64,000 nucleotides of DNA from Arthrobacter oryzae. Lineage in GTDB: Bacteria; Actinomycetota; Actinomycetes; Actinomycetales; Micrococcaceae. Below, piece after piece: positions 7,847-52,125 of this stretch. The stretch is taken from the NCBI RefSeq assembly GCF_003634095.1, contig NZ_RBIR01000003.1, forward strand, positions 310,001-374,000. Direction: 5' to 3'. The translations under genes and the position numbers were made by a program. Under the pieces are notes generated by a model. The model ran no database searches. It was not told where the DNA came from and was given only the letters and a program-made list of their open reading frames with translations. Every line of letters starts with the position of its first letter. Position 1 is the first letter of the stretch.

Positions 7847-7883
7847 ACGAATCAACTAGGCAACTCGAACGCAACCACTACCC

Positions 7884-7914
7884 GCGGATCCGGCCGCACA
7901 CCGGCCGGATCCGC
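7884..7914 (+). other. Intercistronic stem-loop
   Basis: A perfect 13-bp GC-rich stem (7884-7896 with 7902-7914) and a five-base loop CACAC, between the permease stop and the next start. No T run follows, so it looks like an RNA-stabilising or partial attenuation hairpin within the operon rather than a full terminator. Confidence 0.55.
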
Positions 7915-7931
7915 CACCAACCAAGAAAGTC

Positions 7932-9323
7932 ATGATCATGAAAGACGTAGTAATCGTCGGTGGCGGCCTCGCCGGACTCTCGGCAGCATGGCGCCTGCGG
8001 CACTGGGACACTGTGGTGCTGGAATCCGGAAACCGCGTGGGCGGACGGATCCGCTCGGAACGCCGGGGCGCCTACTGGCTGAACTGGGGAGGACACGTCT
8101 TCGCCGGTGCCGGATCGTCCACAGATGCCCTGCTCAATGAGGTCGGCGTGACGGCCGTTCAGATCCCCGGTTCCCTCCAGGCCTTGTCCATGAACGGCAA
8201 ATTCATCCGCAAGGGACACATCGCCACGTACCCGTTCCGGATCCCGATGTCCTTTTCATCCAGGGTGGACACCCTGCGGGCCGGACTCAAGGTGGTCAGC
8301 GGCGTCGCCAAATACACGGGCGTCGTGAGGAAGCGTGCGGGGGAATCCGGCGCTACGCGGCAGCAGCGCATCTATGACTTCGAGAACGACAGCTCGTTCC
8401 TGGACTTCATTGGAAACCTGTCGGAGGACGCTGCGGCACTATTCAAGACCACCGTCACCCGCTCAGCCGGCGACATGGACCAGATCTCTGCGGGCGCCGG
8501 CATCGGGTATTTCAGCCTGGTGCTGGGCATCGGCCAGGGACTCAGTCAGGGCATTGTCGGCGGCCCGTCCACCCTCACCGAATCGATTGCGGTCTCGCTG
8601 GGCGACCGCATCCAGCTCGGAGCCACGGTGCAGGAGGTCGTGCACAAGAAGGACTCCGTCCTCGTCCGGTACAGCCAGGGCGGCGTCGACCATGAAGTGG
8701 AAGCCCGAACCGTCGTCCTCGCAACCACCGCTAATGTGTCCCACAAAATTGGCGTCGACCTTCCGGCGGACCTACGCGGCGCACTCAGCCAGATCAAGTA
8801 CGGCCCGCATGTCAGCACCGCCTTCCTGACCAACGAGACCTCGGCGCGGCCTTGGGACGACATCTATGCCATCGCGGCCCCAAAGCGTTCGTTCGCGATC
8901 GCCCTGAACCAGGCGAGCATCGTCCGTGGTTCGGAGTCTGCGCGGAAGCCCGGGGGCAGCTTCATGACGTTCTCACCGGCCGGCCTGGGCCGTGCGCTGC
9001 TGGACAAGAGCGACGAGGAAGTCATCCAGACCCACCTCACCGACCTCGATCAGGTCCTCGGCCACGGGTTCGCGGACAGCGTCGTCGAGGCCAAGACGGA
9101 CCGGTGGAAGAATGCCTCCCCCTACTGCTTCCCCGGCCGGGCCAAGCTCCAGTCCACGCTCATGCGCGGCACCGACCGCGTCTTCCTCGCCGGAGACTAT
9201 CTCGGCACCCTCTACACCGAAAGCTCCATCACCACCGGGTTCTCGGCAGCACAGGAGGCCGCCAGCCTGCTGGCCACGCACCGCCAGGCCCCGCCCCATT
9301 CCGGCCTCTCGATCGTCGCCTGA
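7932..9323 (+). CDS. FAD-dependent amine-oxidase-like oxidoreductase
   Basis: 463 residues. The N-terminal Rossmann site DVVIVGGGLAGLSAAWRL and the following VLESGNRVGGRIRSE are the classic FAD dinucleotide motif and GG-motif of the flavin monoamine oxidase/protoporphyrinogen oxidase superfamily. The C-terminal FAD contact VFLAGDYLGTLYTESSITTGFSAA is also present. Expected chemistry is oxidation of a C-N (or C-C) bond in a small substrate using FAD. The ATG at 7938 (MKDVVIV) has better spacing from AAGAAAG and may be the true start. Neighbours are a permease, DapA-like lyase and aminoaldehyde-type dehydrogenase, suggesting amine catabolism rather than haem synthesis. Substrate unknown. Confidence 0.85.
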   Translation: MIMKDVVIVGGGLAGLSAAWRLRHWDTVVLESGNRVGGRIRSERRGAYWLNWGGHVFAGAGSSTDALLNEVGVTAVQIPGSLQALSMNGKFIRKGHIATYPFRIPMSFSSRVDTLRAGLKVVSGVAKYTGVVRKRAGESGATRQQRIYDFENDSSFLDFIGNLSEDAAALFKTTVTRSAGDMDQISAGAGIGYFSLVLGIGQGLSQGIVGGPSTLTESIAVSLGDRIQLGATVQEVVHKKDSVLVRYSQGGVDHEVEARTVVLATTANVSHKIGVDLPADLRGALSQIKYGPHVSTAFLTNETSARPWDDIYAIAAPKRSFAIALNQASIVRGSESARKPGGSFMTFSPAGLGRALLDKSDEEVIQTHLTDLDQVLGHGFADSVVEAKTDRWKNASPYCFPGRAKLQSTLMRGTDRVFLAGDYLGTLYTESSITTGFSAAQEAASLLATHRQAPPHSGLSIVA

Positions 9324-44497: not shown

Positions 44498-45436
44498 TCA
44501 GTGGCGCAGGTCGAGCGCCTCAAGGAGCCGTCTGACCGAGCCGCCCAGATTCCACTCGGCAGCGAGGCGCTCAAGCTCGGCCCGCGAACTGCCGGCCACC
44601 GGGTGCAGCTGCGCGCCTGCCTCCTCGAGCGTCGGCAGGTCGAGGTCCCGCACGATCTTCACGACTGCGGGCGCTGCGGCGAGGTAGTCGGAGGCCGCGG
44701 AAAGCTTCGACCGCACGGCCGTGGACAGCCCGCTTCCGGCATCGGCGGCAGCCGCGAGCAGGCTGTCGAGCGTGCCGTACTCTCCGAGCAGCGACGCGGC
44801 GGTCTTCTCGCCGATGCCAGCCACGCCCGGCAGCCCGTCGGAGGCGTCTCCGCGGAGGGTCGCGTAGTCGGCATACTGCCCGGGCAGCACGCGATACTTG
44901 CCGACGATGACCGCGTCAGTCATGATTTCGAGGTTCTTCATGCCGCGGGCGGTGTAGATCACCCGTGCCTGACGGGCGTCGTCGACGACCTGAAAGAGGT
45001 CGCGGTCGCCCGTCACCACGTCAATCGGCAGCCGGGCGTGGCTGGCGTAGGTGCCGATGACGTCGTCGGCCTCATGTTCGGCTGCCCCGACGATGGCGAT
45101 GCCGGCGAGCCCGAGCACCCGGCGGATCATCGGAATCTGGGCCTCGAGCGCGTCCGGCACGATCTCCACATCGGGGCCGCCGGCCACCACTTCCGCGACC
45201 CGGTGCGACTTGTAGCTCGGGATGAGGGCGACCCGCCACTTCGGACGCCAATCGTCGTCCCAGCACGCAACCAGATGCGTCGCGCCGTAGTCGGTCGTCA
45301 GCCGAGCAATCATGTCGAGCAGCCCTCGAACGGCGTTGACCGGCGTGCCGTCGGGCCGGCGGATCGTGTCGGGCACGCCATAGAACGCGCGAAAGTACAG
45401 CGACGCGGTGTCGAGCAACATCAAACGGTCGGCCAT
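44498..45436 (-). CDS. 5'-3' exonuclease (FEN/PolI N-terminal type)
   Basis: 312 residues, stand-alone flap/5' exonuclease. MLLDTASLYFRAFYGVP at the N-terminus; acidic metal ligands in ACWDDDWRPKWR, EHEADDVIGTY and VVTGDRDLFQVV; helix-hairpin-helix RGDASDGLPGVAGIGEKTAASLL. Removes RNA primers or flaps. ATG 45436 has AGGA seven bases upstream; a long upstream extension of the frame is not supported. It is unrelated to the tartrate and 5-oxoproline genes on either side. Confidence 0.93.
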   Translation of the reverse strand: MADRLMLLDTASLYFRAFYGVPDTIRRPDGTPVNAVRGLLDMIARLTTDYGATHLVACWDDDWRPKWRVALIPSYKSHRVAEVVAGGPDVEIVPDALEAQIPMIRRVLGLAGIAIVGAAEHEADDVIGTYASHARLPIDVVTGDRDLFQVVDDARQARVIYTARGMKNLEIMTDAVIVGKYRVLPGQYADYATLRGDASDGLPGVAGIGEKTAASLLGEYGTLDSLLAAAADAGSGLSTAVRSKLSAASDYLAAAPAVVKIVRDLDLPTLEEAGAQLHPVAGSSRAELERLAAEWNLGGSVRRLLEALDLRH

Positions 45437-45569
45437 AACTGATCCTGACACGGATGCGCCCGCTCGGGTTGCATTCGAAAGCAGGACGGCCCCCATGACT
45501 GCCCGCGCCCCACACACCAACGGGCCGCTTCCGCACGGCGGAACGGGCCGGTGCACTCCCTTAGAGCAG

Positions 45570-47330
45570 CTAGCCGATGAGCGCCAGCACCGCTCCGGCC
45601 GTGACAACCCCGCCGGCTCCGGCGCAGACGTCCGTGACAGTGCCGTCCCGGTGCGCGGAGACCTGGGTTTCCATCTTCATGGCTTCAAGGACCACCACCG
45701 GGTCCCCTGCCGAGACCTCGGCGCCCGGCTCGACGAGCCACTTCACCACGGTCCCGGCCATGTCGGCGCACAGCTCGGCCGGGTCGGCAGCGGCGGCGCC
45801 GCCGTCGGACGCTGCTTCCAGGGACACGCCGGCGGGCAGGGGTCCGCCGGAGCGTGCCCAGCCGTCCAGCAGATCGGCCGGCAGGCCGACGGCAAGGCGT
45901 CGCCCGTCCACGTCAACCGTGATGGTGCGGCGTGCGCCGTCGGGCGCGGCGGTGCTGAAGTCCGGATCGGCGGAGATGGAGACATTGTCCGCGAAGTCGG
46001 TTTCGATCCATCGGGTGTGGATGCCCAGCCCGGTCTCGGACGTGAAGTCCGGGGATTCCAGCACGGCCCGGTGGAACGGCAGCACGGTGGCAACCCCGGT
46101 GATGCGCATTTCGGCGAGGGCCCGGCGGGCGCGGCGCAGGGCCTGCTGGCGGTCCGCGCCGGTGACGATCAGCTTCGCGAGCAGGGAGTCGAACTGCGGC
46201 GCCACGAAGGAGCCGGAGCGGACCCCGGTGTCGAGCCGGATGCCCGGGCCGGTGGGACCGGCGAACTCGCCGATGGTGCCGGGCGAGGGCAGGAAGCCGC
46301 GGCCCACGTCCTCGGCGTTGAGCCGGAATTCGAAGGCGTGCCCGCGCGGCGCAGGGTCCTCGGTCAGGCGCAGCGGCTCCCCGGCGGCGATCCGGAACTG
46401 CTCCTGGACGAGGTCGATCCCGGTGGTTTCCTCCGTGATGGGGTGCTCCACCTGCAGACGGGTGTTGACCTCGAGGAATGCCACCGTCCCGTCCGCCGCG
46501 ACCAGGAATTCCACCGTGCCGGCGCCGGAGTAGCCGGCTTCCCGGCAGACCGCCTTGGCGGCGGCGTAGATCAGTGTGGTCTGCTCCGCACTCAGGAACG
46601 GCGCGGGAGCCTCCTCAAGCAGCTTCTGGTGCCGGCGCTGCAGGGAGCAGTCGCGGGTTCCGACCACCACCACGTTGCCGTGCGCGTCCGCCAGGACCTG
46701 GGCCTCGACGTGGCGGGGACGGTCCAGGTAGCGCTCCACGAAGCACTCACCGCGGCCGAAGGCGGCCACGGCTTCACGGACGGCCGAATCGAAGGCTTCC
46801 TCCACCTCGTCCAGAGCCCGGACCACTTTCATGCCGCGCCCGCCGCCGCCGAAAGCTGCCTTGATGGCGATGGGGAGGCCATGCTGCTCGGCGAAGGCGC
46901 GGGCCTCGGCGGCCGTGTCCACCGGACCGTCGCTGCCGGCGACCAGTGGCGCGCCGGCCCTCACGGCAGCGTCGCGGGCGGTGATCTTGTTGCCGAGCAG
47001 CCGGATCGCGTCCGGGCTGGGGCCGATCCAGGTCAGCCCGGCGGCCTGGACGGCCTGGGCGAAGTCGGCGTTCTCGGAGAGGAATCCGTAGCCGGGGTGG
47101 ACCGCGTCGGCTCCGGACTCGGCCGCCACGGCGAGGAGCTTGGGAATGTTCAGGTAGGTGTCTGCGGGTGAGTTGCCGTTCAGGCTGAACGCTTCGTCCG
47201 CGGCGGAGACGTGCAGGGCATCGGCGTCGATGTCGGCGTACACGGCGACGGACGCCAGCTGGGCGTCGTCGCAGGCCCGGGCTATACGGACCGCGATTTC
47301 TCCGCGGTTGGCGATCAGGACCTTGCGCAT
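45570..47330 (-). CDS. Biotin carboxylase with fused biotin carrier domain
   Basis: 586 residues. Biotin carboxylase residues about 1-445 ([47 protein letters not shown]), then a C-terminal biotinyl domain with carrier lysine K552 in LEAMKMETQ. It carboxylates biotin with ATP and bicarbonate. No acyl-CoA carboxyltransferase lies nearby; instead its start overlaps the end of the PxpBC fusion, whose two folds form the carboxyltransferase part of urea carboxylase. It may therefore serve a split urea-carboxylase-like enzyme. Usual annotation would be acetyl/propionyl-CoA carboxylase alpha chain. Confidence 0.92.
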
Positions 47331-49045
47331 CAGTTACTCACTTCTTCGTCGGGGGTGGCGTGTTCGGTGCCGGCAGGCTCGGGGGTGGCGTCGGGGCTGG
47401 CCGGCGCCAGGTTCGGGTCGGATTCGGTCCAGCGGAAGCGGATCCTGCCGCCGATGGGGACCTGCGCGGCGAGGTCCAGCTGGGTGTCAACCACGACCGC
47501 GATGACCGGGTAGCCGCCGGTGACCGGATGGTCGGCCAGGAAGAGCACGGGCAGGCCCTCCGGCGGGATCTGGACGGCGCCGGCGACGGTGCCTTCGCTG
47601 GCCAGCTCGCCCTGGCGGCTGCGCTGCAGCGGGGTCCCGTCCAGGCGCATGCCGACCCGGTTGGACTGCGGCAGAACGGACCAGTCCTGGCCGGTGAAGG
47701 CGTCCAGGGCGGCCTGATCGAACCAGTCCGCGCGGGGGCCGGGGACGACGTCGAGGACGGTCACGCCGGTCCCCGGGTATTCCGGCTGCAGTTCGGGATG
47801 GCCAACGACGCCGGATTCGGCCTCTCCGCCGGCGGCAAGAACCTGCCCGGCAGCCAGAGGCGCGGGACCGATCCCGGACATCGTGTCTGTGGAGCGGCTG
47901 CCGAGTACCGGGGCGGTGTCCACCCCGCCCCGGACTGCGAGGTAGCTGCGGAAACCGCTGTGCGGCGCACCCAGGCTGAGTGTTTCGCCGTCGAGGAGCG
48001 CGAACGGGGTGGCCATCGGCACGGTGCGGTGCCGGGTGTCCCCGGCGCTGTCGGGCGCCGACTCGATGGTCAGTCTCGACGGCGCCCCGGCGACGGCGAG
48101 AACCTGGTCCCGCACCGCACGGACCTTGAGTCCACCGGCGACGGTCTCGACGGCGGCGGCCGACGTCGCGTTCCCGACCAGGCGGTTGGCCCGGCGCAGC
48201 GAGGCCCGGTCCAGCGCACCGGCGGCGGAGACGCCGAGGCCGGAGTGGCCGTGCCGGCCGAGATCCTGGACCAGGCTCAGCATGCCCGGCGAGACAATCC
48301 GGAGTCCGGAGGTCACGTCCTGTCCGGCCGGTTCCGGCGCGCCGGGTTCCTCGACTGACCGTCCGGCCAGCGTGACTGCGGCCCGGACGGGACGGAACTG
48401 TACCCGGTGGCCGGGGGCAGCCAGGGCAGGCTGGTCCCGGTCCAGGTCCCACATCCGGGCATCGGTTCGCCCGATCAGCTGCCAGCCGCCCGGGGACCGG
48501 CGCGGGTACACGGCCGAGTAGTTGCCGGCCAGCGCCACGGAGCCTGCGGGGACGGCAGTGCGCGGCGAGCCGCGGCGGGGCACTTCCAGCTGCTGGTTCT
48601 CCCCCACCATGTAGCCGAATCCGGGCGCGAAGCCGGCAAACGCCACGGTCCAGACCTGGCCGGAATGGGCGGCGATGACGCCCTCGGCTCCCAGGCCGGT
48701 GAGCCGGCCGACTTCGGCGAGGTCCTCGCCGTCGTACACGGTGTCGATCACCACCAGCTCGCCGCCGCGCTGCACGGGAGCGGTCAGGTCGAGCTGCAGG
48801 AGCCGGGCGGCGATGCGCCGGGCCGAGGCCGGGGAATCGGCCTTGACCAGGACGGTCTCGGCCGCGGCCAGGATGTCCAGCTGCCCGGGAAGGGGCTTTT
48901 CGAGCAGCAGCGCCTGCAGCGCCAGGACGTCCTGGGTCCCGGAGAGCTCGGCGAGGACCGCGCGCGTTCCCACGGCCCGCACGGCGCGGACCTTGCGGGC
49001 CGTGTCCTTTTGAACTGCCAGGGTTTCCATTGCTGTCTCCATCAT
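47330..49045 (-). CDS. Fused PxpB-PxpC (5-oxoprolinase/urea amidolyase family)
   Basis: 571 residues. N-terminal half (about 18-225) is the PxpB/KipI fold ([32 protein letters not shown]); C-terminal half (about 245-545) is the PxpC/KipA fold ([42 protein letters not shown]). In most bacteria these are two proteins that, with PxpA, hydrolyse 5-oxoproline to glutamate using ATP. The same pair of folds makes the carboxyltransferase domain of urea carboxylase. It lies in an operon with biotin carboxylase, MFS permease and pxpA. The start may be M1 or M6. Confidence 0.92.
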
Positions 49046-49076
49046 TGCCGCCGTTTTCTGGGAAGGTCCGTGCCGC

Positions 49077-50414
49077 TCAGGCGTGGGCTTCCTGCAGGAG
49101 CCGCTCTTCTTCCTCGGTGTGGGGGTTCCGTCCGATGACCAGACCGATCACTGTCACGACGGCGGCGACGGCCAGGTACGCGGCGATGATGTACCAGTTG
49201 CCGGTCGCGGCGTAGAGGGCGGTGAAGATCAGCGGTGCCACGGCGCCGCCGATCACACCGGCGAGGGTGTAGGCCAGCGAGCTGCCGGCGTAGCGCAGGC
49301 GGGCCGGGAATTGCTCGGTAATGAAGGCGGCCTGCGGGCCGTACATGAAGGCGTGGAACGCGAGCCCGATCACGACGCCGATGGTCAGCATGAGCACCGA
49401 CTTGCCCTGGATCATGAGGAAGAAGAGGGGTATGTACAGGGCGGTACCGACAGTGGCGATGCCGTAGACCAGCCGGCGGTTGAAGCGGTCGGTAAGGGCC
49501 CCGGCGGCGGGGATCAGCACCAGCTGGAAGGCGGAGCCGATCAGGATGGCGCCGAGGACGTTGCCCGTGGTCATGCCCAGTTGCTTGGTGGCGTAGAGGG
49601 CAATGAAAACCGTGAAGAGGGAGTAGAGCACGTCGGGGCAGATGCGGGACAGGGCGGCGGCCACGAGGGCGCGGGGTTCCTTGGTGAAGACCTCCTTGAT
49701 GGGGGCCTTGGGCGCCTCGCCGTGGGCCTGGATGGCCTTGAAGACGGGGGTTTCCTCGAGCTTGAGCCGGATCAGGAGGCCGAAGACCACCAGCACGGCG
49801 GAGGCGAGGAAGGCCACGCGCCAGCCCCAGGAAAGGAAGGCCTCGGTGCTGAGGGTCGCGGCGAGAAGGGCCAGGACGCCGTTGGCCATCAGGTTGCCCG
49901 CCGGCGGGCCGATCTGGGCAGCCGAGGACCAGAAGCCGCGCTTGCGGGCATTGCCGAATTCGCTGGAGAGCAGGACGGCTCCGCCCCATTCGCCGCCGAC
50001 GCCGATCCCCTGCGCCAGGCGCAGCAGGACCAGGATGGCCGGGGCGGCGACACCGATGGCCGCGTAGTCCGGCAGCACACCTATGAGCACGGTGGCGACG
50101 CCGATCAGCATGAGGGTGACCACCAGGACGTGCTTGCGGCCGATCTTGTCGCCGAGCCGGCCGAAGATCACGCCGCCGATGGGGCGGGCCAGGTAGCCGA
50201 CCGCGAAGGTGGAGAAGGAGAGCAGCAGGCCGACCAGCTCATCGCCAACGGGGAAGAAGATCTTGGGGAAGATCAGCGCCGAGGCCACGGAGTAGATCGC
50301 GAAGTCGTAGTATTCCAGCGACGTGCCGGTCAGGCTGGCGATGTACGCCTTGAGAGCGCCGGGCGGCAGCTTCCTCTTGCTGGCGGCCGGAGCGGCCTGC
50401 TGCGGTGTGGTCAT
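49077..50414 (-). CDS. MFS permease, metabolite:H+ symporter type, in the 5-oxoproline operon
   Basis: 445 residues, 12 membrane segments. SLTGTSLEYYDFAIYSVASA at helix 1, GRLGDKIGRKHVLVVTL between helices 2 and 3, GIGVGGEWGGAVLLSSEF and FITEQFPARLRYAGSS are MHS signatures. It lies between pxpA and pxpBC, so 5-oxoproline (or the true substrate of the operon) is the likely cargo; this is inference. It is distinct from the creatine-operon permease at 3489. Confidence 0.92.
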   Translation of the reverse strand: MTTPQQAAPAASKRKLPPGALKAYIASLTGTSLEYYDFAIYSVASALIFPKIFFPVGDELVGLLLSFSTFAVGYLARPIGGVIFGRLGDKIGRKHVLVVTLMLIGVATVLIGVLPDYAAIGVAAPAILVLLRLAQGIGVGGEWGGAVLLSSEFGNARKRGFWSSAAQIGPPAGNLMANGVLALLAATLSTEAFLSWGWRVAFLASAVLVVFGLLIRLKLEETPVFKAIQAHGEAPKAPIKEVFTKEPRALVAAALSRICPDVLYSLFTVFIALYATKQLGMTTGNVLGAILIGSAFQLVLIPAAGALTDRFNRRLVYGIATVGTALYIPLFFLMIQGKSVLMLTIGVVIGLAFHAFMYGPQAAFITEQFPARLRYAGSSLAYTLAGVIGGAVAPLIFTALYAATGNWYIIAAYLAVAAVVTVIGLVIGRNPHTEEEERLLQEAHA

Positions 50415-50499
50415 GATTTTCCTCCAGGTGTGCGGGGGTGCTGCCTGTTGCTTGGTGTGTGCAGTGGTGGGGTGTGCCGCGGATCAGCCGTAAACGGGC

Positions 50500-51258
50500 T
50501 TAGACGAACGCGGCGGTTTCGATCCCGGCGGCGGTGAGCGCAGCGCGGACGGCAGCGGCCATGGTGACGGCTCCTGGCGAGTCGCCGTGCACGCAGATAC
50601 TCTCGGCGCGGATTTTCAGGATGGAGCCGTCGATTGTGCGGACGGCGGAGTCGGTGGCCATCCGCAGGACATGCTCGGTGACTTCTGCGTGGTCGTGCAG
50701 CACGGCTCCGGGGAACGTGCGGGAGACCAGCGTGCCGTCCGGGTTGTAGGCACGGTCAGCGAAGGCTTCCGTGACGGCCCTGAGCCCGGCGGCCTCGGCC
50801 AGGCGCAGCACCTCGGAGCCAGGGAGGCCCAGGATCGGCAGGTTCGGGTCCACCGATTTCACGGCGTCGACGACGGCCCGCGCCTGGGCGGTGTGCGACA
50901 CGATCGCGTTGTAGAGTCCGCCGTGCGGCTTGACGTAGGTGACCTTGCCGCCCTCGGCCGCGGCCAGCGCCTGCAGCGCACCGATCTGGTAGACGACGTC
51001 GTCCGCCAGTTCGCCCGGATCGATGTCCAGGAACCGGCGGCCGAAGCCTGCGAGGTCGCGGTAGCCGACGTGTGCGCCGATCCTGACGCCGGCGGTGACG
51101 GCCTCGCGGCAGGTCCGGCGGATCACGCTGGGGTCGCCGGCATGGAATCCGCACGCCACGTTGGCGCTGGAGACGGAGCGGAACATCGCCAGATCGTCGC
51201 CCAGCGTCCAGCGTCCATACGACTCGCCGACGTCGCTGTTCAGGTCGATCGTTGCCAT
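50500..51258 (-). CDS. pxpA: 5-oxoprolinase subunit A (LamB/YcsF family)
   Basis: 252 residues. [72 protein letters not shown] and [11 protein letters not shown] are family hallmarks, with the Asp, His and Lys residues expected at the active site. It acts with PxpB and PxpC in ATP-dependent 5-oxoproline cleavage. ATG 51258 has GAGG six bases upstream; the ATG at 51270 is an alternative. First gene of the minus-strand operon. Confidence 0.94.
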
Positions 51259-51333
51259 TGTGATCCTCATCTCATGGTTGTGCCCTTCTAGGATGCACCA
51301 AAAGTTCAGATTGTTCAACGATCCTTCAATCCC

Positions 51334-51363: not shown

Positions 51364-52125
51364 ATGACCAGCTCCGAATCGGGATCCCGAGTCCTTTCCG
51401 CCAGGCAGCAAACAGCAGCGCCCGGAGCCGCGGCAGGGAACAAGCGCGATGCCGGAGCTGGTGCCGCGCTGGGCGCGGCGGCCCGGCTGCGCGTGGCGGT
51501 TCCGTCCGTGGCGGACCGGGTGGCGGCAGAACTGCGCCTGCAGCTGGCCGAGGGGCTGCTGCTGCCGGGAGCCCGGCTCACGGAATCGACCATCGCGGAG
51601 GACCTGGGCGTCTCCCGGAACACGGTCCGGGAGGCCTTCGCCGAGCTGGCGGCCGAACGCCTCGTGGTCCGCCACCCGAACCGGGGCGTCTTCGTGGCCA
51701 GCCTCGAGCCCGGCGACATCCACGACGTCTACGCCGTGCGCCGCGCCATCGAGGTGAGCGCCATCCGCGGCGGCGGCAGCCCCGAACGGGTGGCAGCGGT
51801 CCGAGCGGCGGTGGAGGAAGGCAAGGCCGCGGCCGCCGCCGACGACGAAGAAGGCCTAGGCAACGCCAACCAGCATTTCCACGGCGCGATCGTGGCCCTG
51901 GCCGGCAGCCGGCGGCTGGACACGATCATGGCCCAGGTCCTGGCCGAGATGCGGCTCTTCTTCCACAAGGCCACCCTGGACGCGCACTTCTACCGGGGCT
52001 GGTTGGCGGACAACGAGGAAATCTGCGCGGCCTTGGAAGCCGGAGACCCGGGCCGCGCCGGAGACCTTCTGCTGGCCTATCTGGACCGTTCAGAGGAACG
52101 CCAGTCAGCGGTGCACGCGGAGTAA
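51364..52125 (+). CDS. GntR-family regulator, FCD subgroup
   Basis: 253 residues. An unusual Ala/Gly-rich N-terminal extension of about 40 residues precedes the winged helix-turn-helix (about 45-110; [23 protein letters not shown]), then an FCD domain ([21 protein letters not shown]). Divergent from the pxp/biotin carboxylase operon, so it probably regulates that operon. An internal start after the extension cannot be excluded. Confidence 0.9.

Follow-up and report, generated by a model that had tools for sequence, protein, structure and literature searches.

The 64,000-nucleotide stretch of DNA from the soil bacterium Arthrobacter oryzae analyzed here (contig NZ_RBIR01000003.1; hereafter, the window) contains a minus-strand operon in which pxpA, a major facilitator superfamily (MFS) permease gene and a fused pxpB–pxpC gene (pxpBC) are followed by a gene for a biotin carboxylase joined to a biotin carrier (BC-BCCP). 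We consider it probable, with some reserve, that the operon is induced by 5-oxoproline, a common breakdown product of glutamate, and encodes a two-component, biotin-dependent 5-oxoprolinase.

The association of the two genes was examined in 181 loci with a CT_A_B gene: 67 from a sample of the family, 33 from a sample of the phylum, 80 named loci from GTDB, and the window. The gene family was present in 57 of 61 family-sample genomes and in 49 of 198 phylum-sample genomes (21 places from the phylum search were left out). As the named loci are the best 80 of at least 590 candidates, class shares are not frequencies, and proteobacteria with unfused PxpB and PxpC are under-sampled. A script placed a locus in class F when a BC-BCCP of the window's type lay beside pxpBC, in FUS when all parts shared one open frame, in U when it was a urea carboxylase, in S when another biotin carboxylase (BC), not of the window's type, was nearby, and in N when no BC occurred in the stretch read, mostly 6–7 kb per side.

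Class F comprised 105 labelled loci (32/67 family, 1/33 phylum, 71/80 named, and the window). Its sole phylum-sample member, L171, is a false label, namely an acetyl-CoA carboxylase pair on the opposite strand, so that the true number is 104. Class FUS consisted of two family-sample loci (L123 and L124, of 67), N of 58 loci (25/67, 24/33 and 9/80, in the same order), S of 12 (7/67, 5/33 and 0/80) and U of 4 (1/67, 3/33 and 0/80). The 71 named F loci derive from Actinomycetes (30, including L178 with broken frames) and from alpha- (13), beta- (14) and gammaproteobacteria (14). A PxpB–PxpC fusion is found in 103 of the 105 F loci, 26 of the 58 N loci and none of the 12 S loci. Some N-class contigs end close behind pxpBC (L231 at 49 nt, L077 at 3.4 kb, L100 at 4.2 kb). 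The N class also contains four long open reading frames that group with urea carboxylases (L142, L150, L157 and L162); these are frames of 640–793 codons with a CT_A_B domain and with no BC or PxpA match nearby.

Such a neighbourhood survey had been proposed as a check when the operon was first described in a reading of the sequence alone (the sequence-only reading), and its outcome favours the pairing. BC-BCCP adjoins pxpBC in 71 of the 80 best named loci and also on plasmids, where the limits used gave 208 records with a PxpBC relative and 214 with a BC relative. Among the 37 accessions shared by the two top-60 lists, 36 have the BC gene and pxpBC on one strand and no more than 100 nt apart; in the remaining one the distance is 1474 nt. 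A chance neighbourhood was rejected because the pairing recurs over two phyla. Klebsiella accounts for 98 of the 208 plasmid records with a PxpBC relative. One Klebsiella plasmid, NZ_CP012994.1 (L269), has genes for a GntR regulator, an NRAMP transporter, PxpA, D-glutamate cyclase, fused PxpBC and BC-BCCP in a row; in another Klebsiella record (L270), pxpB and pxpC are unfused and accompanied by pxpA and pcp, and the stretch read contains no BC.

The arrangement of the genes and one structure also connect the two proteins. In the 99 F loci with a placeable start, the stop of pxpBC and the start of the BC gene overlap by 4 bases in 36 cases, by 1 base in 7 and by 8 bases in 7 (50/99). In L123 and L124, from two genomes of one genus, PxpB, PxpC, BC and BCCP lie in a single frame uninterrupted by stops, about 1148 and 1165 codons long, respectively, with a linker rich in Pro, Ala and Ser. 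Retention of the frame across linkers of differing length speaks for a putative fusion. In both genomes, however, GAGAGG stands 6 nt ahead of a GTG that lies in frame where BC formerly began, so the BC may also be translated alone, which weakens the open frame as proof of fusion.

The strongest piece of evidence for the partnership is PDB entry 9YX5 (released 2025-11-26). By its title and chain names, it is a long chain acyl-CoA carboxylase complex of Mycobacterium smegmatis with MSMEG_0435–MSMEG_0436 bound, AccA3, PxpB and PxpC being among its chains. The best PDB match of the window's BC-BCCP is the sequence of that very AccA3 (5e-230). A literature search, with most subscription journals outside its coverage, found neither a publication describing 9YX5 nor a published account of a biotin-dependent 5-oxoprolinase.

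The window's BC-BCCP itself has the features of a general biotin-dependent carboxylase, with an intact BC active site and a biotin-accepting Lys. Its nine BC catalytic positions (E. coli residue numbering) are all intact, and no fewer than 103 of 106 rows conserve each of them; the biotin motif reads EAMK or ESMK in 96 of 99 F loci. On the strength of the adjacency in two phyla, the open frame in two genomes, 9YX5 and the lack of a spare acyl-CoA carboxyltransferase in the genome (see below), the two coupled genes belong together, most likely as one two-protein biotin enzyme, as the sequence-only reading had supposed.

The regulatory site points to 5-oxoproline. According to the available text of PMC13274462, C. 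glutamicum PxpR binds 5-oxoproline (KD 726 nM) and represses pxpTABC at AGATTGTTCAACAATCT, and alteration or deletion of the PxpR site raises reporter expression 6.5-fold. The window has an operator of this kind, AGATTGTTCAACGATCC, between pxpA and gntR, with 2 mismatches; 0.02 such matches would be expected in the whole window. With up to 3 mismatches and anywhere in the locus, the operator was found in 81/105 F, 2/2 FUS, 8/58 N, 0/12 S and 0/4 U loci, compared with 1 match in 60 loci in a letter-shuffled control. It lies within 300 nt upstream of the start of pxpA, gntR, the permease gene or pxpB in 80/105 F loci, 2/2 FUS loci and 6 N loci. A relative of the NRAMP-type transporter PxpT, searched with the protein of the Klebsiella plasmid operon, occurs in 47/105 F, 1/2 FUS and 2/58 N loci. 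The operator and the PxpT-type transporter thus place the biotin-linked operon with 5-oxoproline.

The predicted fold of PxpBC is that of the carboxyltransferase of urea carboxylase. An AlphaFold model (mean pLDDT 89.5) matches TTHA0988 (Z 39), M. smegmatis 3MML and E. coli YbgJK, and it matches the carboxyltransferase of K. lactis urea amidolyase with Z 34 and 3.8 Å over 310 residues. In the K. lactis enzyme, as far as the available text of PMC5770610 goes, Lys1605 probably serves as general base, and the change K1605A lowers kcat about tenfold. This residue aligns with position 157 of PxpB, where Lys is found in 4/4 urea carboxylases and in 9 of the 12 S rows. The PxpBC beside BC-BCCP thus has the fold but not the general-base Lys; replacement of this Lys by Arg implies that the window's lineage is no urea carboxylase. 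Scores against the urea carboxylase model TIGR02712 were 522.6 and 150.8 bits, for two genes, compared with a cut-off of 1303.85.

The reaction could proceed as follows. BC-BCCP would make carboxybiotin on Lys552 from ATP and bicarbonate, as its domains and residues suggest, and the swinging BCCP arm would carry it to PxpB–PxpC. There, the lactam of 5-oxoproline would be activated, most simply by N- or O-carboxylation, after which PxpA would open the activated ring to yield glutamate, with loss of CO2. Where Actinomycetota lack the dedicated BC gene, AccA3 may substitute as the general subunit, as 9YX5 suggests. By analogy with C. glutamicum, the GntR regulator would act at the PxpR-type operator and turn the operon on with 5-oxoproline.

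Several observations weigh against a biotin-dependent reaction. On a tree of 131 fused PxpBC proteins (in Actinomycetota, 64 with BC and 25 without, L231 uncounted), the BC label changes at least 15 times, always within Actinomycetota, and starred branches force 9 of these changes. In each of 18 genomes, tested from among the 26 N loci whose PxpBC is fused, there is a single BC-BCCP of this kind, which is AccA3-like (58–62%); six F or FUS control genomes have two each. In L102, a broken BC (positions 7858–9069; 55% identity over 103 residues, 37% over 289) stands behind a pxpBC of the window's family, a loss under way. The BC beside pxpBC in two Frigoribacterium loci (L211 and L216) has Gly and Ala for the catalytic Asn and Arg and no carrier in frame, and is apparently a decayed or altered subunit. 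Residue 157 is Arg in 105/105 F, 2/2 FUS and 53/54 N rows (one gap); as the residue is the same whether or not a BC gene is present, the site gives no sign of adaptation to carboxybiotin, and for the same reason an active-site change was rejected as a marker of biotin use. The window's operon has no PxpT relative, the MFS permease taking its place. B. subtilis PxpA, PxpB and PxpC alone are said, in work attributed to Niehaus in 2017, to reconstitute 5-oxoprolinase in vitro, which counts against biotin dependence at least in that lineage. Furthermore, the available text of PMC13274462 has C. glutamicum growing on 5-oxoproline with its pxpTABC cluster and presumes that PxpB and PxpC phosphorylate 5-oxoproline.

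These observations could be accommodated by a biotin-independent PxpABC, in which PxpBC phosphorylates 5-oxoproline with ATP, PxpA opens the ring and BC-BCCP binds PxpBC as an accessory that catalysis does not require. Such an enzyme would suit a BC gene that was lost or gained repeatedly and has decayed in L102, the unchanged Arg157, the growth of C. glutamicum, the mechanism assumed in print and the reported B. subtilis reconstitution. We nevertheless regard it as rather unlikely. It leaves the BC gene's presence in 41/41 Pseudomonadota rows of the PxpBC tree (drawn from the best 80 named loci only) and in 36 of 37 plasmid pairs hard to account for, as well as the single open frame in two genomes and the conservation of the BC catalytic residues and biotin site; and the actinomycete genomes without the BC gene retain an AccA3-type protein that could serve. 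In proteobacteria, AccB and AccC are separate. Between a BC that is dispensable and one for which AccA3 can stand in among Actinomycetota, the dedicated subunit being indispensable in proteobacteria, we prefer the second.

Among close relatives of the window, one Arthrobacter metagenome-assembled genome (L173) encodes a PxpBC 80–82% identical to the window's and has pxpA, gntR and the operator, with no BC in the next 6 kb; this could reflect a recent loss, a rearrangement or an assembly fault.

In a BC tree that took in 42 of the 104 F rows, the window's BC groups with other pxp-linked BCs of Actinomycetota, and the 16 Micrococcaceae AccA3 rows form one clade (99). The F group as a whole is no clean clade: AccA3 branches inside it, L132, L211 and L216 fall outside, and several forks are open. 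Among the matches listed, full-length identity to the window's BC is 61–66% for pxp-linked BCs of proteobacterial plasmids and 64–66% for BC-BCCP genes of Streptomyces plasmids, Streptomyces being absent from the ten PxpBC genera listed. In one genome (G001), the pxp-linked BC (60%) is no nearer to the window's than the same genome's AccA3 (60%). Given these equal values, identity is a weak mark of a pxp-linked BC. L102, with its BC being lost, and the identities of the Streptomyces genes weigh slightly against the biotin-dependent 5-oxoprolinase, and the operator positions slightly in its favour.

The same two-protein biotin enzyme might act on another substrate (urea, hydantoin-like ureides, 2-pyrrolidone or 5-oxo-D-proline), 5-oxo-L-proline being only the inducer or a relative. 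The carboxyltransferase fold is indeed common with urea carboxylase, and a gene of the D-glutamate cyclase family (PF07286), which would fit a D-isomer, occurs in 44/105 F loci, though also in 1/2 FUS, 7/58 N and 3/12 S loci; in one plasmid operon it is placed between pxpA and pxpBC. The PxpR operator, the PxpT transporter, a PxpA of the standard subfamily and the missing urea carboxylase Lys make this alternative improbable. Urea in particular was rejected for the window's lineage, which lacks the urea-carboxylase Lys and has an operator of the 5-oxoproline type. The sequence evidence makes 5-oxoproline, rather than urea, the most likely substrate, perhaps with its D form included. The sequence-only reading had proposed a lactam or ureido substrate; the lactam half of that proposal gains from the PxpR operator and the PxpT-type transporter, and urea drops out.

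The genome (4.31 Mb; nearest relatives in trees and matches, Arthrobacter) contains one PxpBC, two pxpA genes, four full BC genes and two Carboxyl_trans genes. The sequence-only reading had named pairing with an acyl-CoA carboxyltransferase encoded elsewhere as part of what would speak against its proposal; both Carboxyl_trans genes have nearer partners, and both lie on contig C4, the window being on C3, in agreement with the lack of such a gene in the operon. The one at C4:328897 adjoins a BC at C4:330467, followed by a frame that by eye resembles an acyl-CoA dehydrogenase, and the one at C4:249805 is 12 kb from an AccA3-type BC gene at C4:236306. A further BC, on C8, lies within a 1135-codon frame resembling pyruvate carboxylase (by eye). 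As the other three BC genes have partners or such a frame, the window's BC is left over without a partner of this kind. That BC-BCCP is an acyl-CoA carboxylase alpha subunit merely riding in the operon, with an AccD-type partner encoded elsewhere, is therefore very improbable despite its 58% identity to the AccA3-type subunit of the same genome, the branching of AccA3 within the F rows and the Streptomyces plasmid matches equal to the proteobacterial pxp-linked ones, for it must also contend with the separate Micrococcaceae AccA3 clade, the pxpBC linkage over two phyla and 9YX5. The second pxpA (L268; G000:C3:149550-150266) is about 210 kb from the operon, and no second PxpBC accompanies it in the genome. 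A eukaryote-type (Hydantoinase_B-type) 5-oxoprolinase elsewhere was rejected, as a PF02538 search of the genome gave no match.

The features of the locus are collected in Table 1. The gene calls of the sequence-only reading hold: the BC-BCCP gene, with K552 in EAMKM, overlaps pxpBC by one base, and the naming of permease and pxpA agrees with Pfam and NCBIfam. PxpA belongs to the standard subfamily and qualifies as the PxpA of a PxpABC system, scoring 372 bits against NF003814 (cut-off 226) and 339 bits against LamB_YcsF. The other two parts stay under the NCBI equivalog cut-offs (TIGR00370, 116.2 against 145.55 bits; PxpC_5OPro, 191.9 against 500), and PxpBC passes the broad domain model TIGR00724 (253.8 bits, cut-off 230.2); homology and fold are clear. 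The GntR protein was compared with its counterpart in the Klebsiella plasmid operon, with which it shares 38% identity across 201 aa. Directly behind the operon, on the same strand, is a gene for a 5'–3' exonuclease of the DNA polymerase I N-terminal type (44498–45607, minus). Its longest frame overlaps the end of the BC gene, and its real start is probably further inside.

Table 1. Features of the biotin-linked pxp operon and its upstream region (window positions)
Feature	Position	Strand	Length	Basis or remark
BC-BCCP (biotin carboxylase + biotin carrier)	45570..47330	minus	586 aa	Pfam Biotin_carb_N / CPSase_L_D2 / Biotin_carb_C / Biotin_lipoyl
Codon of biotin-accepting Lys552 (EAMKM) in BC-BCCP	45675..45677	minus		sequence
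pxpBC stop / BC-BCCP start overlap	47328..47332	minus		TGATG, one base common; AACTGATGCGC
Fused PxpB-PxpC	47330..49045	minus	571 aa	Pfam CT_C_D then CT_A_B
Codon of PxpB Arg157, aligned with urea carboxylase Lys1605 (K. lactis numbering)	48575..48577	minus		alignments
MFS permease, metabolite:H+ symporter type	49077..50414	minus		TIGR00883 405.1 bits, under cut-off 443.45
pxpA (LamB/YcsF)	50500..51258	minus	252 aa	NF003814, LamB_YcsF
PxpR-like operator AGATTGTTCAACGATCC	51308..51324			2 mismatches vs proven C. glutamicum site
GntR/FCD regulator, divergent from pxpA, PxpR-like	51364..52125	plus		Pfam

A second biotin-linked cassette, here called lineage S, was found in seven Micrococcaceae loci (L074, L079, L080, L084, L085, L088 and L092), with the order pxpA, BC, pxpB, pxpC. 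A similar cassette is also present in L144 and L146. A small separate carrier with an FYR-type motif was seen in L080, L085 and L144. Lineage S resembles the window's operon in having biotin parts beside pxpB and pxpC, but its PxpB and PxpC are unfused, its BC is a different one, its PxpB carries the Lys–Tyr pair of urea carboxylase and no PxpR operator was found in it. The label of a split urea-carboxylase-like enzyme, which the sequence-only reading had given to the window's genes, seems by these residues to be deserved by lineage S rather than by the window's lineage.

The activation step of prokaryotic 5-oxoprolinase has only been assumed to be a phosphorylation, and carboxybiotin offers a second, testable mechanism. 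If it is correct, biotin enzymes would extend to the opening of lactams; it could also account for the 64 + 51 kDa classical Pseudomonas enzyme (see below) and would make sense of 9YX5, the mycobacterial entry.

Compared with the PxpABC systems of B. subtilis, E. coli and C. glutamicum, the window's operon has the same PxpA, PxpB and PxpC parts and a GntR regulator and operator like those of C. glutamicum; it differs in the fusion of PxpB and PxpC, in the dedicated, overlapping BC-BCCP gene and in the MFS permease in place of the NRAMP-type PxpT. With urea carboxylase and urea amidolyase (K. lactis, 3VA7, 5I8I; TIGR02712) it shares BC, BCCP and the carboxyltransferase fold. It consists, however, of two proteins, with PxpB before PxpC, Arg for the catalytic Lys and PxpA in the operon. 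Bacterial two-gene relatives of the urea-carboxylase carboxyltransferase domain were noted by Lombard and Moreira, with no function assigned in the available text (PMC3199775). Unlike an acyl-CoA carboxylase (AccA3/AccD), the operon includes no Carboxyl_trans partner. Entry 9YX5 similarly has an AccA3-type BC-BCCP together with PxpC and PxpB, but the mycobacterial complex uses the general AccA3, whereas the window has a dedicated BC-BCCP. Two Mycobacterium loci (L243, L249) have no BC beside pxpBC, the M. smegmatis locus itself being outside the survey.

The 5-oxoprolinase of P. putida (Meister) invites a further comparison. In the available text of PMC8453981, component A is a hexamer of 64 + 51 kDa dimers with oxoproline-dependent ATPase activity, and a separate component B (82 kDa) opens the ring; the text on component A mentions neither biotin nor gene names. 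In eight Pseudomonas loci, P. putida not among them, the predicted masses are 60.5–62.1 kDa for BC-BCCP and 55.6–60.0 kDa for PxpBC, with the start taken as the nearest upstream Met or the end of the open frame. Lone PxpB and PxpC have 210–228 and 294–318 residues, respectively (M. smegmatis and E. coli; PDB). The 51 kDa subunit is under all eight Pseudomonas PxpBC values, and 82 kDa would call for about three copies of PxpA, whose chain has 26 kDa in the window. Nonetheless, judged by size alone, the subunits and the hexamer of dimers would fit BC-BCCP and PxpBC better than PxpB plus PxpC. We therefore put forward, as a tentative proposal that may well prove wrong, that component A was BC-BCCP plus PxpBC in an alpha6beta6-style assembly, the lactam being carboxylated and not phosphorylated, and AccA3 being shared with fatty acid synthesis in Actinomycetota that have no BC gene of their own beside pxpBC. 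Among the known systems, the window's operon would work like a biotin carboxylase joined to a prokaryotic 5-oxoprolinase.

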